IMG/VR virus record: IMGVR_UViG_3300021477_000013
Span: 1 to 44,023 of that record
DNA from: a virus
Strand: one strand, 5' to 3'
Length of the DNA stretch: 44,023 nt
The notes below the pieces were generated by a model. That model had not been told where the DNA came from. It made no database searches and saw only the letters and a list, made by a program, of their open reading frames with translations. This document shows positions 34,433 to 43,030 of this stretch, piece after piece; position 1 is the stretch's first letter, and every line of letters starts with the position of its first letter. Made by a program: the position numbers and the translations under genes.

Positions 34433-34595
34433 CTTCTGCCCCGGTTCTCCTCAGCCAATCCCGTAGCTCCTCTTTATCATTCGGATCGTCTTGGTCTGCG
34501 ATCCATTGGCAGGTTAGGCATCTCTTGCGAACGATGCCGAGAGCGTCGTAAACCTCGGAGCTACAATCTGTACAGATATAGGTCGGTTCATCCAT
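34425..34595 (-). CDS. small zinc-ribbon protein, 56 residues
   Basis: Starts at ATG 34595-34593 after GGGAGGG, overlapping the MazZ stop (TAATG). CTDC at 8-11 and CLTC at 26-29 are likely zinc ligands; the rest is acidic (DQDDPNDKEELRDWLR). Located immediately downstream of mazZ in the same operon. Function unknown. Confidence 0.65.
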   Translation of the reverse strand: MDEPTYICTDCSSEVYDALGIVRKRCLTCQWIADQDDPNDKEELRDWLRRTGAEDE

Positions 34596-34927
34596 TAGTC
34601 CCTCCCGTCGATCGCCATTGCGCACAAAATGAGAGCCATATTCGCCACGTCGGCAGCTTCGAGAACTATCTCTACGGTGTTCTTTCCCTCCTCAATGGCG
34701 CTGGCTAGTTCTGTGACTTCTTCCCGAAGGTGGTTCATGTATTCGACGACCCGCCCGTGTTCCCACTTTCCCTTGTGGGAATTCTTGCGCAGCTTGTAGA
34801 TCATCGCATCGAACATGCGCCTCATATCATGTTCATACGCTCGAAGCTCCGGCGGAATCTTGATCGTCAACTTGCTCCACTCTAGGCCCATGCCCGAAGA
34901 TAAATTTGTAATTCGCTCCGAGGACAT
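34595..34927 (-). CDS. mazZ: MazZ-like nucleotide pyrophosphohydrolase (MazG/DUF550 fold)
   Basis: 110 residues by the longest frame; the domain resembles DUF550/MazG proteins. The Mg-binding acids are in EEVTE (69-73) and EAADVAN (90-96, Glu90 and Asp93), with NSHKGKW (49-55) before them. In Z-genome phages this class converts dGTP to dGMP, supplying the substrate of PurZ. It overlaps the end of purZ by 95 bases if started at ATG 34927 (AGGA upstream). Later ATGs (34891, 34825) would shorten the overlap, so the true start is uncertain. No long linker or second domain is present. Confidence 0.85.
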   Translation of the reverse strand: MSSERITNLSSGMGLEWSKLTIKIPPELRAYEHDMRRMFDAMIYKLRKNSHKGKWEHGRVVEYMNHLREEVTELASAIEEGKNTVEIVLEAADVANMALILCAMAIDGRD

Positions 34928-35888
34928 CTCTAGTATTCCTGTGCTTTTTGTAAAAGTCCAGTTGCTCTAGGGTATTCAGATAGTTCATGAAGTTTAAGAA
35001 TACATGCGTCGGGTCGTTCGCTGTCACCGAATCCTTGAACTGGTTCCAGCTGAACGTAGCGACGCGGCGCACCCGCTTGGTTACGGTTGTATATTCGGTG
35101 GGAACGCCTACCGTATCCCAGTCGGTTTCATATTGATCAGTGTACCAATCCCCACTGCTGAACCCATCGGCATTTCCTACCCGGATGGGGTAGGTCCGGA
35201 AACACAGATAGCCCCTTTTGTAGTATGTCGGCGGGAGACGGGCGTCAGCCATTCCCTGCATGAACGTACATTCGCGGCTGGTTACGTGTGGATAAAATTT
35301 GGCCTCGTTTAATCCCAACGAGAACCCTTGAGAAATCTCCATAAAATACGGGTGATATTCCAGGTCGACAATATTCTCATAGTAAGGAAATAACCGATGG
35401 GAGTGATTGTAATAAATGGCAGAAGGATCACGGCGAACCTTTCTAGAAATTGCCGCGCCGGTTCCTGAACGTGTTCCAGCAACAGCGAATATACTGCCAG
35501 AGGTATCATTCTCTGTCACCCTATCCTTTTCGAGGATTACCGTCGCGCAGGGATGAATGAATATAGGGATGTCCGGAAATTCTAAGTGTTCCTTGATCAG
35601 CAATTCGGCGTCGATAGTTGCCCCTGCCGAAAAGTATACCGGAATGGTATGGCCTCGCAGATGCATGTGAACCGCGAAGGTGGGCAGTTGTTTTAGAACG
35701 ATCTTAGTTTCCCTGAAATAACTGGTGTGTCCGCTATTCGGCCCCGCGCTTGTGATGCAGCCGTTGAATGGGATTACTTCTATAATAGCGCGCTTGGCGA
35801 GCCAAGAAGCGATCAGCCCCTTCCCCTCTGAACCATATTGGCCTCCGGCGAGGATATGGAGGCCAGTGTCAGTGAATAGAGTGCTCAC
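34833..35888 (-). CDS. purZ: PurZ, 2-amino-deoxyadenylosuccinate synthetase
   Basis: 351 residues, homologous to adenylosuccinate synthetases. The P-loop-like start GGQYGSEGKG (15-24) has Ser20 where host PurA has the catalytic Asp (GDEGKGK); this replacement marks PurZ. GPNSGHT (49-55) and the GTRSGTGAA segment (138-146) are further family motifs, with RTYPIRVGN and ETDWDTVGVPTEYTTVTKR later in the sequence. PurZ joins dGMP and aspartate (ATP-driven) to give 2-amino-deoxyadenylosuccinate; host enzymes finish dZTP. ATG 35888 overlaps the preceding stop. Confidence 0.93.
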   Translation of the reverse strand: MSTLFTDTGLHILAGGQYGSEGKGLIASWLAKRAIIEVIPFNGCITSAGPNSGHTSYFRETKIVLKQLPTFAVHMHLRGHTIPVYFSAGATIDAELLIKEHLEFPDIPIFIHPCATVILEKDRVTENDTSGSIFAVAGTRSGTGAAISRKVRRDPSAIYYNHSHRLFPYYENIVDLEYHPYFMEISQGFSLGLNEAKFYPHVTSRECTFMQGMADARLPPTYYKRGYLCFRTYPIRVGNADGFSSGDWYTDQYETDWDTVGVPTEYTTVTKRVRRVATFSWNQFKDSVTANDPTHVFLNFMNYLNTLEQLDFYKKHRNTRDVLGANYKFIFGHGPRVEQVDDQDSAGASSV

Positions 35889-37301: not shown

Positions 37302-37570
37302 CTATCTTTTGCGCCTCGTACCAACCCAATCATATTTATAGCATGAACTACGTCGATGTCGCCTGCGATGTCTTCCATCTCTTTATCGCTAGGATTACGC
37401 AATTTATCGCCATCATATATTGCGACATGTGAACAATAGAAGCATATTGCCACATCCCCATCCTCCGGAGGGCGGCTCTTTGCGTTGGTTACGTCCATCG
37501 CCGCACTCATGGATTTATTGCAATTAGGGCAGAAACACTCAGGTCTTCTGAACGCTTCGATTCTAGCCAT
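37298..37570 (-). CDS. small zinc-ribbon protein downstream of the polymerase
   Basis: 90 residues from ATG 37570-37568 (GGAGGC upstream). CPNC near residue 14 and CFYC near 43 give a zinc ribbon; the C-terminal segment is helical (DIDVVHAINMIGLVRGAKD). It overlaps the polymerase stop by eight bases, and its TGA lies in the next promoter's -35. Unknown function. Confidence 0.65.
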   Translation of the reverse strand: MARIEAFRRPECFCPNCNKSMSAAMDVTNAKSRPPEDGDVAICFYCSHVAIYDGDKLRNPSDKEMEDIAGDIDVVHAINMIGLVRGAKDS

Positions 37571-39335
37571 AGGAAGCCTCCGCCCAATTAGTTCCAGTTC
37601 CGACCTCATAAGGAATAGGTAGACCGAGTTTAAATTCATCCGGGACCGCCTCGCAGACTTTTATCAATTCGGTGGTGTCGAATCCGATCTCGCGCTGCCA
37701 AATCAACGAATCGTGGATGGTCATTAGTAACTGTACCTGCGGATGAGCTTCCTCGTATTCGGAGGCGCGCAGGAGAGTTGTCTTCATCAAGTCGCCGCCG
37801 GAATTCTGTATGATTCGGCTCACCGCTCGATAAGCGTATGCTTTATCCTCTAGACGAGCCTTGCGGCCAGTGATCGACCTGACGTAGCCGCTCGATAAGA
37901 ATATGCCCTTCGCTTCTTTTTGGAACTTGAGAATGGCGGGGAATTGACCTTTCAGCCACGCCTGATGATAGTTCAACGCTCGATTGTAGTCCCAACCCAT
38001 ATGACCTGCCAACGCTTTAGCTGACATGCCTGTTAGGATTCCCATGGCCATTCGTTTAGCGATATCTCGGTGCAATCCCAGACCAGCGGAAGTGATGTCG
38101 TGGATGTCCATAGTTCCGGAGCGGTATCCCTGAAGTAATCGCTCATCTTCTGAGAAATATGCAAACAATCTAGGCTCTTGCTGTTTGGCGTCGCCTTCCT
38201 GAATCTCGAAACCGTCATCAGCAATGATGAGTCTTCTGACGGTTTTCCCGACTTCTTTATTTCGTTTTGGGAACGCTTGAAGATTCGGCTCAGAACAGCT
38301 AAATCGCGCTCCGATTGCACCGTAGTCGTCAGATTTAGATTGATTGAGTACAGGATGAACTCGTCCCTTAACATTATGCGTCTCCACAAGCGGCGTGACG
38401 AACGAATCCCGAGCTTTTTTCATCTGCCTTATGCCGATAATTCTTTCGCCAATTTCGTTATTTTTCAGCCATCCTTCGGTGAAGGATACGGCCCCATTCT
38501 GGGTGCGTGCGAAGTCATCGTCCCCGAACCCCTCACGACGATAAAGACTCTCAACGTCTTTCGGTGAGTTGGTATTGAAACCATATGGAAACGTCGATTG
38601 GATCGCGGCAATTTTGGTCTCGATGATTCCGTTCGGTCCTCTGAGTTGTTGACCATATTCGCCATCCACTTTCATCCCGCGTCGATGGAGACGCGCCACT
38701 CGATGAATTAGCTGACATTCCAGCTTCCAAGGAGTCCTCAATTCGTGTTCGTCTAGCAGCTTCTGCTGCGCCTCCCACAGCTCTAAAGTGGATATCCCGT
38801 CACCCGTAGCGTAATCCACAACGTCAGGATGATCGCCAGCCATCTTGTAAAAGTTAGCCATTGTCTTGCGGTTTGGCATACCGCCAAATTTCGCCGCGAT
38901 TGCCCGATAAAGAGCATCGCCAAGCTTAGCAGTAACACCATGGCGTTGGCTACAATCATCGAGTCCATACCCAGAAGTGACATCGCTGATAAGCCCCTCA
39001 TTTATCATGGTATCTTCCAAGGGGTACTCCGGAAATACGCCGTGTTTTCCCGCCATGCGCAGGTCGAAACCCAGAGCGTGACCGACCGTAAGGAAGCCGC
39101 GCCGAGCGCGAGTCTTGAATGCGAGACCCAAAACTCTCTCGAACTCCCCTGAATGAAGTATGTTTCCTCCACCAACATGGCCGGTGGGAACGTAGACGCT
39201 CGCATAGCGGTCTGTAAACACCCAACCCACAACAGTATCATGAATTGTCAATCCCGTTGTTTCTGTATCGAACGCCATCACAGAAGAGTGTTGCACCATA
39301 TCGATGGCGCGTTGCGGATCAATTCCCTGATACAT
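37563..39335 (-). CDS. family A DNA polymerase with 3'-5' exonuclease (DpoZ candidate)
   Basis: 590 residues from ATG 39335-39333 (GGAGACTAAA). Exonuclease motifs: FDTET (22-26), GHALGFD (85-91) and YATGD (175-179). Polymerase motifs: A with Asp382 (EGDAKQQEPR), B from Arg423 and Lys427, C with His541-Asp542. Unusual residues: relative to E. coli Pol I, the O-helix Phe762 is Met431 and Tyr766 is Thr435, and the Glu after the motif C Asp is Ser543. In Z-genome phages a proofreading family A polymerase (DpoZ) favours Z over A. Co-occurrence with purZ and mazZ supports that, but the substrate preference is inferred. Confidence 0.85.
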   Translation of the reverse strand: MYQGIDPQRAIDMVQHSSVMAFDTETTGLTIHDTVVGWVFTDRYASVYVPTGHVGGGNILHSGEFERVLGLAFKTRARRGFLTVGHALGFDLRMAGKHGVFPEYPLEDTMINEGLISDVTSGYGLDDCSQRHGVTAKLGDALYRAIAAKFGGMPNRKTMANFYKMAGDHPDVVDYATGDGISTLELWEAQQKLLDEHELRTPWKLECQLIHRVARLHRRGMKVDGEYGQQLRGPNGIIETKIAAIQSTFPYGFNTNSPKDVESLYRREGFGDDDFARTQNGAVSFTEGWLKNNEIGERIIGIRQMKKARDSFVTPLVETHNVKGRVHPVLNQSKSDDYGAIGARFSCSEPNLQAFPKRNKEVGKTVRRLIIADDGFEIQEGDAKQQEPRLFAYFSEDERLLQGYRSGTMDIHDITSAGLGLHRDIAKRMAMGILTGMSAKALAGHMGWDYNRALNYHQAWLKGQFPAILKFQKEAKGIFLSSGYVRSITGRKARLEDKAYAYRAVSRIIQNSGGDLMKTTLLRASEYEEAHPQVQLLMTIHDSLIWQREIGFDTTELIKVCEAVPDEFKLGLPIPYEVGTGTNWAEASYG

Positions 39336-39348
39336 TTTAGTCTCCGAG

Positions 39349-39391
39349 AAGCGGGCGGGGCCGAAGAACCACCAACAGAACCCCGCCCTTC
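39349..39391 (-). terminator. GC-rich hairpin just upstream of the polymerase start
   Basis: GGGCGGGG (39353-39360) pairs with CCCCGCCC (39381-39388), with partly matching flanks, 14 bases before the polymerase ATG. It may be an attenuator or terminator between the upstream gene and the polymerase; no T-tract is evident. Confidence 0.5.
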
Positions 39392-39422
39392 TAGCTACCA
39401 ACGTGATCTACGATTTACGGCG

Positions 39423-40852: not shown

Positions 40853-40912
40853 GAGGCCGAATCCCAGGGGGTGTGGGATTCGGCCTCCGTCGCGAGCGGT
40901 GTTCCCGCGACG
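40853..40912 (-). terminator. double hairpin after the PEP-CTERM-like gene
   Basis: A perfect 13-bp stem (40853-40865 with 40875-40887, loop of 9) and beside it a 7-bp stem (CGTCGCG 40888-40894 with CGCGACG 40906-40912). Together they lie between the gene's stop (40918) and the promoter of the next operon. They probably end leftward transcription, though no T-tract is present. Confidence 0.6.
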
Positions 40913-40917
40913 TTCGG

Positions 40918-41508
40918 TTAGCCCAAGTTCAGATCGGTTCTACGTCGGCTAGAGCCGAACATACTGAGCATCCCGAACCCTGCAATCAGCATCGCCCAAG
41001 TCGAAAGCTCGGGAGTTGCCGCCGCACCGACCCCGCTCACTCCTGTCACCGTTCCATCGATAGCGAGATGAATCGGCGATGAGCCGCTCATGCCCGCAAG
41101 TTCGGTGAAGTAGGTGCCCGCCGCAAGCACGTCGGGATTAAGCTCGGCGCTTTGGCCTCCCGGCGTATTGACAAGAGGCGTGCTTTCGAGGAGCGCACCA
41201 GCCGGAATGAACAAAGGCCCAGGCCCGATCGAGGTTTCAGTGTTGAGCGAAAGCACGCCGTCAACAATTTTGAGGCTGTTGCTGAAAGCGCTATCACTCA
41301 TCGAAACGCTGACGGTTTCGGTGGTCGGCAACGTGAACTCGAAGAATTCCGAGAACCCGATACCAGAACCCGGTGACGATTCGGCGGGGAGCGCGAGGCT
41401 CTCGTTAAGAATCGAACCGACGTCCTGAACGTCAATAAGGGTTGCTGCTCCTACTGGATTCGCGCCGATCGCAGCCAAGATCGTCGCGCCCAACAATATA
41501 CTTTTCAT
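40918..41508 (-). CDS. secreted protein with PEP-CTERM-like sorting tail
   Basis: 196 residues. Signal peptide MKSILLGATILAAIGANPVG (1-20), a beta-rich mature domain of about 140 residues with no Cys, and a C-terminal module: PELSTWAML (from 166), a hydrophobic span (IAGFGMLSMFG) and Arg-Arg-Arg. Signal peptide, PEP-like motif, one span and basic end are the tripartite PEP-CTERM signal read by host exosortase. It is a single-gene unit from its own promoter. PEP-CTERM proteins are exported surface or matrix proteins; in a phage this suggests host-surface modification, or a captured host gene. Unusual in a virus. Confidence 0.75.
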   Translation of the reverse strand: MKSILLGATILAAIGANPVGAATLIDVQDVGSILNESLALPAESSPGSGIGFSEFFEFTLPTTETVSVSMSDSAFSNSLKIVDGVLSLNTETSIGPGPLFIPAGALLESTPLVNTPGGQSAELNPDVLAAGTYFTELAGMSGSSPIHLAIDGTVTGVSGVGAAATPELSTWAMLIAGFGMLSMFGSSRRRTDLNLG

Positions 41509-41533
41509 GTGACTAGCTCCATGTTAGCGCCCA

Positions 41534-41562
41534 ATTATAACACATCACGCGTACGCTGTCAA
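41534..41562 (-). promoter_or_regulatory. consensus sigma70 promoter of the PEP-CTERM-like gene
   Basis: -35 TTGACA (41562-41557), 17-bp spacer ending TGT, -10 TATAAT (41539-41534), reading leftward. Confidence 0.88.
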
Positions 41563-41586
41563 GTCCCCTTTACTACTATAACGAAA

Positions 41587-41622
41587 CCCCGCGCAGAGGG
41601 CCTGTGGGAAGCTTGCGCGGGG
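41587..41622 (-). terminator. hairpin after the proline-rich gene
   Basis: CCCCGCGCA (41587-41595) pairs with TGCGCGGGG (41614-41622), followed in the leftward direction by TTTCGTTATAG. Probable Rho-independent terminator, 33 bases after the gene's stop. Confidence 0.6.
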
Positions 41623-41655
41623 CTCCGACTCGGGCCGGGAGGCGGCCTGCCCGAA

Positions 41656-42240
41656 TTATCGGCCCAGACGAGACTTCGGCTGGGGTGTTGGCGGCTGCGG
41701 AAGCCCTTGATCGGGATGCTCACTTCCTTCTTCCGGAGGCAAGCCTTGATCAGGCGCAGGCGGAGAGATTTCAATCACGATGTAACGATACCCGACGCCT
41801 TGAATGGCGGCGAGAACTAACGCTTTGCCAGTCGGCGCGGCTCCGGGAGGAAGAGGCGGCCAAACCGTGCCGGGGGGCGGATCGGTCGGGGGAAGAGGAT
41901 GTCCCGCGATTGGGGGAAGTCCTTGATCCGGACCGATTGGCCAAACCGGAAGCTGTCCCGGCTGCTCTTCACCGACGCCGTACTCCGGATCGGTTGGGCG
42001 ACCGGGGCGGGATGGAAGATGGCCGGGGCGAGGAGGACGGCCCTGACCGAATCCGGGGTCAACCGGACGGCCTGGACGAGCCGGAAGATGGCCTGGGTGT
42101 CCCGGTGAACCCGGAAATCCAGGCAATCCTTGATCGGGGCCTGCGCCTTCGTCAATCCCATAATCGGGATCACCCCCTCCGCCGCCGAATCCCGGCCGTT
42201 CAACCGGGGTAATGTATGCTAGATAACCTGATCTGGGCAT
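41656..42240 (-). CDS. proline/glycine-rich protein with PDQGLP repeats
   Basis: 194 residues from ATG 42240-42238 (GGAGAG upstream). A short N-terminus (MPRSGYLAYITPVE) is followed by long Pro/Gly/Asp-rich sequence with repeats of PDQGLP and GHPGHLPARPGRP type, and a folded-looking insert (KALVLAAIQGVGYRYIVIEI, about residues 144-163). Such sequence occurs in several phage proteins near tail or structural genes. A virion surface or fibre-associated role is possible. Frames on the plus strand here are shadows of this repeat. Confidence 0.65.
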   Translation of the reverse strand: MPRSGYLAYITPVERPGFGGGGGDPDYGIDEGAGPDQGLPGFPGSPGHPGHLPARPGRPVDPGFGQGRPPRPGHLPSRPGRPTDPEYGVGEEQPGQLPVWPIGPDQGLPPIAGHPLPPTDPPPGTVWPPLPPGAAPTGKALVLAAIQGVGYRYIVIEISPPAPDQGLPPEEGSEHPDQGLPQPPTPQPKSRLGR

Positions 42241-42258
42241 TGCTTCTCTCCTAGACAC

Positions 42259-42274
42259 CGCCAAATTCGGCGGA
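42259..42274 (-). terminator. short GC hairpin after the DUF6496 gene
   Basis: CCGCC, 6-base loop, GGCGG directly after the stop codon at 42275. Weak; may reduce read-through. Confidence 0.35.
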
Positions 42275-42448
42275 TTACTTGCGGCGGCGACCCTTCTCAG
42301 GGTACTTACCGCCATGTTTCTTCTCTGTCGCCTTCTCGCTGAGCATGATGGCGACGGCTTGTTTTTGGCTCTTAACGACCGGCCCCTTCTTGGAGCCGGA
42401 GTGGAGCTTGCCTTTTCCCCACTTACTCATTACCTCGCTGGACGGCAT
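42275..42448 (-). CDS. DUF6496-like small basic protein
   Basis: 57 residues from ATG 42448-42446 (GGAGCG upstream). Sequence contains SKWGKGKLHSGSKKGPVVK, then QKQAVAIMLSEK and a Lys/Arg-rich end. KGKLHSGS...V.S..QA.AI.LSE is the DUF6496 pattern seen in phages and bacteria. Very basic, so possibly nucleic-acid-binding; function unknown. Confidence 0.75.
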   Translation of the reverse strand: MPSSEVMSKWGKGKLHSGSKKGPVVKSQKQAVAIMLSEKATEKKHGGKYPEKGRRRK

Positions 42449-42460
42449 AATTCGCTCCTA

Positions 42461-43030
42461 TTATGCTGCGCTCACAGTAACGTTGACGATCGGGCTCTCT
42501 CCGCCCGCGTTGGTGGCGGAAACGCCGAGGATGTCGTTGCCAGCGACAATCCCTGCCGCTCCTGCCGCTGTCACGGTAAGCTGGCCGCTGTTACTGATGG
42601 CGAAGTGGCCATTCGGGTTACTAGCAGCGCTTATGGCGAAGCTGGTTGGGTTGCCAAGCGCGCTGACCGCGCCAATGATTTGGTTGGCGCTCGCTGGTAG
42701 AGTCAGATTAAAGTTCTGATTCGGTGCGATTACCGGGGGCGCTGGCGGAAGCACTGCTTGAAGCTCCGCTGCCATTGCTGAATTGCTGAGATTCCCAGCC
42801 TTGCCGCGATTGATAACGATCAGTAGATCGTTGGTGAACGGCGAATGGGAAGCCTGCCCCGGCTGCAACCCGACAACCGGAGCGGTCTTGATGGTTGCAT
42901 CATGGGTGGTTGTATCAGTGCCGAGAGCGGTTGCGATTGCCTGCGTCTCGGTTTCCAGATTCGCGTAGTTCGCATATTGTTTCATTACCAGAGACGCTTT
43001 GTCCTGGAATGTGCCCAAATCGTACGACAT
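42461..43030 (-). CDS. Ig/cadherin-like virion or surface protein
   Basis: 189 residues. A helical N-terminal segment (1-90) is followed by a Pro-rich linker (about 91-105) and an immunoglobulin/cadherin-like beta domain (FNLTLPASANQIIGAVSALG, then GHFAISNSGQLTVTAAGAAG, and SATNAGGESPIVNVTVSAA). Such domains in phages often decorate capsid or tail and bind cell-surface glycans. ATG 43030 follows GGAGAGC. Single domain; it may be a decoration protein. Confidence 0.65.
   Translation of the reverse strand: MSYDLGTFQDKASLVMKQYANYANLETETQAIATALGTDTTTHDATIKTAPVVGLQPGQASHSPFTNDLLIVINRGKAGNLSNSAMAAELQAVLPPAPPVIAPNQNFNLTLPASANQIIGAVSALGNPTSFAISAASNPNGHFAISNSGQLTVTAAGAAGIVAGNDILGVSATNAGGESPIVNVTVSAA

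Follow-up and report, generated by a model that had tools for sequence, protein, structure and literature searches.

Why should a phage encode a protein that ends like a substrate of a bacterial sorting enzyme? In the passage of Haft 2006 cited here, bacterial PEP-CTERM proteins are proposed to cross the inner membrane by means of a signal peptide, to be held there by a C-terminal helix and to be cut by EpsH/exosortase. An initial annotation had claimed that a protein of this kind, which might remodel the host surface during infection, is encoded at positions 40918-41508 of the window (the whole 44,023-nucleotide stretch of the IMG/VR virus record IMGVR_UViG_3300021477_000013 that was analyzed). 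The overall best explanation, and one that we consider reasonably probable, is that the gene is phage cargo for a surface protein sorted by the exosortase of the host.

The gene and the parts of its protein

The features at and around the gene are as follows.

40918-41508, minus strand: coding sequence for a phage FxDxF-like PEP-CTERM protein, 196 aa, ATG start
41446-41508, minus strand: signal-peptide-like start, residues 1-21, read by eye (A21/A22 at least 90% conserved; helix 4-14 in the model)
41029-41445, minus strand: body, residues 22-160, predicted beta-sandwich (AlphaFold model and closest solved folds)
40990-41013, minus strand: residues 166-173, putative sorting motif PELSTWAM (PE-x-x-T-W-x-M without exception in 49 complete contig copies; NF035944 E 2e-5)
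40954-40998, minus strand: hydrophobic span, residues 171-185 (read from the sequence; helix 168-187 in the model)
40939-40947, minus strand: arginine cluster RRR, residues 188-190 (read from the sequence; all 49 complete contig copies end with a net positive charge)
41517-41520, minus strand: GGAG ribosome-binding site read from the sequence, 8 nt before the ATG
41534-41562, minus strand: consensus sigma-70 promoter with extended -10 (12/12; one of 16 genome-wide sites)
40853-40887, minus strand: hairpin downstream of the gene, no T run (14 of 14 pairs)
41582-41627, minus strand: hairpin between the upstream gene and the promoter (86% paired)

The open reading frame proposed earlier is real, and the body and tail described for its product were found again. 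Read by eye, the N-terminus has a basic residue followed by a hydrophobic core and small residues at about 21-22, a start resembling the signal peptide that had been claimed. No cysteine occurs in the 196 residues and the AlphaFold model contains nine strands, matching the cysteine-free, beta-rich body of the initial annotation. The tail (PELSTWAMLIAGFGMLSMFGSSRRR) reads P166-E-L-S-T-W-A-M, stays hydrophobic to about residue 185 and ends in RRR at 188-190, again as described, and thus follows the C-terminal plan of a transmembrane helix and then a basic cluster given in the cited part of Haft 2006. At the near-invariant Pro-Glu-Pro of the same source the window protein has PEL, the PE being invariant in 49 contig copies.

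An apparently closed phage genome

Phage genes occupy both strands of the window, itself a virus record, namely terminase, portal, scaffold, major head protein, endolysin-like and DNA ejection genes on the plus strand and primase-like, helicase-like and DNA polymerase A genes on the minus strand. Bases 8-32 repeat the final 25 bases of the window, and a separate contig (L100), which carries a 98% copy of the gene among matching neighbours, reads across this junction without a break; the genome therefore appears to be closed. Neither Rfam nor tRNA scans returned a match. No tyrosine integrase was detected in the window, so lysogenic conversion is not obviously applicable to this phage, a point against the explanation favored here.

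PEP-CTERM is a bacterial system (Haft 2006, in the part cited), which speaks for a host gene caught in a chimeric or contaminated contig, but phage genes flank the gene, the contig ends join, the second contig keeps the same neighbours around its copy and relatives lie at 52 viral loci. A profile of the body, which recovered the window protein as a control, matched none of 397 genomes from the order of a Bradyrhizobium, none of 246 from the order of a Polymorphobacter and none of 385 from the class (three overlapping samples), and no bacterial chromosomal copy with the same flanks was found. Given the joined ends, the 98% sibling and the 52 viral loci, contamination was rejected as hardly credible, and the gene is phage-borne, as the initial annotation had it.

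Elsewhere on the minus strand of the window, a family A DNA polymerase gene (37563-39401) lies close to a MazG-like gene (34595-34927, E 0.006) and a gene for a PurZ-like adenylosuccinate synthetase (34833-35888, phrog_1211, E 9e-49), a cluster that we take to be a candidate 2-aminoadenine (Z) genome module. A Pro/Gly-rich protein with PDQGLP and RPVDPGYG repeats is encoded at 41656-42315 (minus strand); its cluster occurs in 13 loci besides the window (members include L118, L119, L124, L125, L131, L134 and L136), in several of them just upstream of the PEP-CTERM gene, and some relatives share the conserved end 'PAGKALVL..I.GVGYRY'. Also near the PEP-CTERM gene, an Ig-like protein (42461-43030, minus strand; weak Big_9 match, E 0.023) belongs to a cluster of 19 loci including the window, with related domains across several phage lineages.

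A diverged homologue of FxDxF-like PEP-CTERM proteins

The search of virome data for homologs that had been proposed as a check found, in successive IMG/VR scans, 22, then 50 and then 52 viral loci. Half of the first 22 belonged to the same family and 11 had mainly the tail in common. These 52 are spread over 51 contigs, since L116 and L143 share one; in the 50-locus set 49 are complete and L113 runs off its contig, and L148 and L149 were counted only among the 52 loci and in no other family count.

The window protein matches the FxDxF PEP-CTERM profile NF038126 near full length (residues 13-189, 27.7 bits, E 2.7e-6; cut-off 50) and the PEPxxWA-CTERM profile NF035944 with 24.4 bits (E 2e-5; cut-off 35), bearing out the description "PEP-CTERM-like"; it reached none of the curated PEP-CTERM cut-offs, and no TIGR02595 or PF07589 match was listed for it. 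Because it lies below both cut-offs, the window copy taken alone falls short of formal membership. Among five relatives scanned, L134 passes both thresholds (FxDxF 58.7 against 50, PEPxxWA 38.5 against 35), L128 (53.3) and L116 (51.0) also pass that of FxDxF, L122 passes PEPxxWA (42.2 against 35) and misses FxDxF (41.9), and L103 passes neither (FxDxF 38.6). PF07589 matches 48 of 50 members at E values up to 1, the window not included. The profile check suggested by the initial annotation is thus borne out for the relatives L134, L116, L128 and L122 and not for the window copy itself. With the NF038126 and NF035944 families the phage proteins share a beta body, the tail plan and a full-length profile match, along with a start that by eye resembles a signal peptide; in contrast to their bacterial counterparts, the phage copies appear as mobile cargo, and the window copy has PEL and remains under both cut-offs. 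Judged by sequence comparison, the window copy is a diverged homologue under the cut-offs, and the family is one of FxDxF-like PEP-CTERM proteins. The PEL and the missed cut-offs count against the explanation that we favor.

A tail motif under strict selection

The motif PE-x-x-T-W-x-M was kept in 50 of 50 complete copies, comprising the window's and 49 from other contigs, and because all 49 of the latter retain it the tail motif is more than chance. Its third residue is P in 31 of these contig copies, A in 7, L in 6, T in 3 and I in 2, which makes the PEL of the window a minority form. The codons for P, E and T of the motif vary among 39 non-redundant copies, and median dN/dS, from pairs not independent of one another, was 0 for the motif (22 usable pairs), 0.27 for the body (25 close pairs), 0.46 for the hydrophobic/basic end (22 pairs) and 0.42 for the signal (25 pairs). 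The net charge of the last 16 residues lies between +2 and +5 in 49 of 49 contig copies, and most of the 45 columns invariant among 50 copies fall in the body. Constancy of the motif while the hydrophobic flanks vary freely is, at the level of sequence, the pattern expected of a sorting signal, and homology together with selection strongly supports the putative identity of the tail.

A predicted beta-sandwich body

An AlphaFold model built from 50 alignment rows had a mean pLDDT of 63.8 and nine strands of at least 3 residues, an earlier model from 12 rows being poor (pLDDT 49.7). Nearest among solved folds was the C-terminal domain of a subtilase (Z 9.6, rmsd 3.4, 102 aligned), with p24 GOLD domains at up to Z 9.2 (rmsd 2.6, 99 aligned) and collagen-binding/PPC domains at Z 8.2-8.7; at Z 8-9.6, against a best Z of 7-8 typical without a clear match, the resemblance is modest, and this weighs against the favored explanation. 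By profile, GOLD_2 matches weakly in 16 of 50 members (best E 0.011) and PPC (PF04151) in 13 of 50 (best E 0.039), the likeness being otherwise one of fold. A PDB sequence search with the protein gave nothing below E 0.14, the BFVD fold list for the model was diffuse, and no PEP-CTERM protein was among the PDB fold matches listed, which excludes nothing. On this model the body is predicted to be a common secreted beta-sandwich, a fold that indicates no function.

Expression and control

The consensus promoter claimed for the gene is present at 41562-41534 as TTGACA-17-TATAAT with an extended -10 (12/12 consensus match), a site of sigma-70 type belonging to the gene itself. The 961-base stretch around the gene holds 2 promoter sites against 0.5 expected, and the whole window holds 16 of the class TTGACA-N14-TGnTATAAT (up to 3 mismatches; 3 perfect) against 1.9 expected, so the PEP-CTERM gene uses the general promoter type of the phage. 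The idea of a promoter special to this gene was rejected on account of these 16 sites. The two flanking hairpins of the initial annotation were also recovered; neither carries a T run, and 0 T-tailed terminators were found near the gene. A further sequence, GGGGACTTGACA, is over-represented in the window (11 occurrences against 2.8 expected, up to 2 mismatches).

According to the cited part of Haft 2006, bacterial PEP-CTERM genes are mostly single-gene operons and the proteobacterial ones mostly have a sigma-54-type site. Unlike these, the phage copies have no sigma-54-like enrichment, best scores upstream of 39 copies being equal to those of shuffles, so the protein has seemingly been taken out of host exopolysaccharide-linked control.

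The strong promoter of the window, together with a tail motif that is the best conserved part, would suit a decoy, in which an abundant phage substrate occupies the exosortase and keeps the host's own PEP-CTERM proteins, for instance phage receptors, off its surface. A pure decoy would need no selection on its body, yet the body is constrained too (dN/dS 0.27 and most of the invariant columns), and a promoter matching at least 10 of 12 positions precedes only 4 of 40 family copies (against 19 of 604 control genes), two of these four (L101 and L113) representing one lineage. We consider a decoy improbable.

Cargo exchanged between phage lineages

Gene content near the gene divides the carriers into 5 groups at a threshold of 0.2 or 9 at 0.3, and linking records with at least two common clusters joins all of them. 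Their large terminases differ in type (phrog_2-like in the window and L137, phrog_9 in L107, phrog_38 in L108), and a tyrosine integrase was matched in 16 of 38 carrier records searched (15 over the cut-off), adjoining the PEP-CTERM gene in one carrier group. A protein tree of 39 copies, built after removal of 12 rows (the truncated L113 and 11 near-copies), required 14 changes of group label against a minimum of 7 and a shuffled mean of 22.8; labels followed the 0.3 threshold, with the single L112 placed in the integrase group by its neighbour. Taken as a sequence-based reconstruction, the gene tree is clustered by phage lineage with repeated transfers. One example is L101, which has the window's neighbours at 73-84% identity and a copy that groups with L123 of another lineage (support 99/98). 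The varied terminases, the integrases and the 14 changes indicate that the gene moves between phage lineages, and the sequences suggest accessory cargo exchanged among different phages. Gene calling for the gene-order, cluster and tail-locus analyses used a home-made longest-ORF scheme, and 4 of 51 family genes (L118, L129, L139 and L140) were uncalled in the gene-order display.

On the 52042-base contig with two copies, L116 and L143 each lie beside their own integrase near opposite contig ends, and tandem prophages or a composite are candidate readings of it. The viral record of L150 (G017) contains GGCNN arrays with 5-base periodicity at about 115-403, at 1033-1135 and elsewhere.

Some carriers have the gene near portal or tail genes, which would suit a protein of the virion or of its assembly with a C-terminal helix only accidentally like PEP-CTERM. 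Its position nevertheless varies between lineages, and the signal-peptide-like start, the strict motif and the full-length FxDxF match over the cut-off in relatives all argue against this, leaving a structural role very improbable.

The same tail occurs on other bodies. A tail-only scan returned 50 viral loci, of which 49 (L187 was dropped because its body is too short) have bodies forming 13 clusters including this family. Twelve further body types with PEPxxWA-CTERM tails were therefore recognized in viral contigs (L012-L022, L159-L207), two of them with 11 members each. Phage genes accompany some of these loci (L012 beside a portal gene, L014 and L019 near terminases, L013 next to an exonuclease); 4 of 10 neighbours tested had no PHROG match (L015, one of two in L017, L021 and L022), and viral origin at these loci rests on the IMG/VR classification.

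Searches of named phages with tblastn gave no match to the protein and none to a 33-aa tail, although the low-complexity filter of BLAST may hide tails, and one group-D protein searched gave no match.

A probable alphaproteobacterial host with an exosortase

No exosortase was found in the window or in any of 49 carrier records, many of them fragments and L012-L022 not among them; the same search found the enzyme in each of 7 bacterial genomes that have tails of this kind. Set against each other, these results make the exosortase-bearing host foreseen by the initial annotation a well-grounded expectation.

Which bacterium this might be is addressed by several searches. All 77 genome matches to the tail scan, which was seeded with the window's own tail, are named alphaproteobacteria or subgroups of them, and none covers the whole body (the longest runs over 56-190 at 31%). 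A capsid protein search matched 11 of 385 alphaproteobacterial genomes at 27-38% identity, too distant for naming a host. By portal the nearest named phages, beside spring phages, are Ochrobactrum OH (38.5%) and Sinorhizobium phiM5 (31.5%), and the phages recovered by terminase searches were all distant and had mixed hosts. An alphaproteobacterium is the probable host. That none of the three genome samples held a bacterial homologue of the body counts against our favored explanation.

A proposed surface protein of the infected cell

We propose the following course of events. Host RNA polymerase would transcribe the gene from the phage's sigma-70-type promoter, a site present in the sequence, and the signal peptide would direct the product to Sec export. 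The PE-x-x-T-W-A-M/hydrophobic/basic tail would then hold the protein in the inner membrane, following the model of Haft 2006, until the host exosortase recognizes and cuts it, releasing the body to the cell surface or exopolysaccharide; sorting by the host enzyme in this way is, in our estimate, highly probable. Once displayed, the PPC/GOLD-like beta-sandwich may bind or mask something at the surface of the infected or lysogenic cell, most likely so as to block adsorption of competing phages or to alter matrix properties. Most plausibly, the displayed phage protein changes who adsorbs or sticks to the infected cell; superinfection exclusion is a possible purpose, and some other change of surface or matrix a slightly less probable one.

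In a related alternative, matrix conversion, the displayed domain would join the host exopolysaccharide matrix and change aggregation, so that the infected cell is shielded or progeny stay close to hosts. The cited part of Haft 2006 links PEP-CTERM proteins to exopolysaccharide and a further excerpt links them to flocs, binding modules appear among the fold neighbours of the model, and carriers include phages with and without a detected integrase. The invariant residues, however, point to no known binding module, and we regard this alternative as rather unlikely.

Display of a cargo protein by the host exosortase, as favored here, has parallels in known systems. Ltp, Llp and Cor are superinfection-exclusion lipoproteins, those of the Ltp type having a lipobox cysteine after the signal peptide; this cysteine is absent from the window protein (0 Cys). 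Ltp of Streptococcus thermophilus phages, as described in the part of PMC3952083 cited, is likewise small, secreted and phage-encoded, with temperate carriers in both cases, and it reaches the host surface through an anchoring route of the host, as is proposed for the product described here; its anchor is a lipobox, whereas the protein described here, known from sequence, has an exosortase-type tail. By analogy, Ltp may be the nearest functional counterpart.

In titles and abstract openings, with few subscription journals covered, no phage PEP-CTERM protein was found beyond a passing mention of TIGR03118. That passage (PMC11003980) places TIGR03118 proteins, which have a putative exosortase interaction domain, among the HGT genes found in Yellowstone viruses; these too are viral, belong by accession to a different family and are given there as a count only (n=13), their tail, spread and function not being analyzed in it. 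The cited excerpt of PMC12642866, on Microcystis, concerns host genes.

Exosortase sorting is a widespread and little understood envelope pathway of environmental bacteria, and phage substrates with a strictly selected motif would show that it matters in phage competition. Tentatively, we envisage a class of exchangeable phage cargo proteins, of at least 13 body types, that would coat the infected or lysogenic cell via the host exosortase as a Gram-negative counterpart of lipoprotein superinfection exclusion, moved from host exopolysaccharide-linked to phage control, in hosts that are probably Alphaproteobacteria. Phage-encoded substrates would provide small single-gene probes of PEP-CTERM protein function, and for uncultivated phages the tail may mark the host as one expected to have an exosortase. 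The apparent trade in this gene among many different viruses suggests a redecoration of infected cells by the phages.
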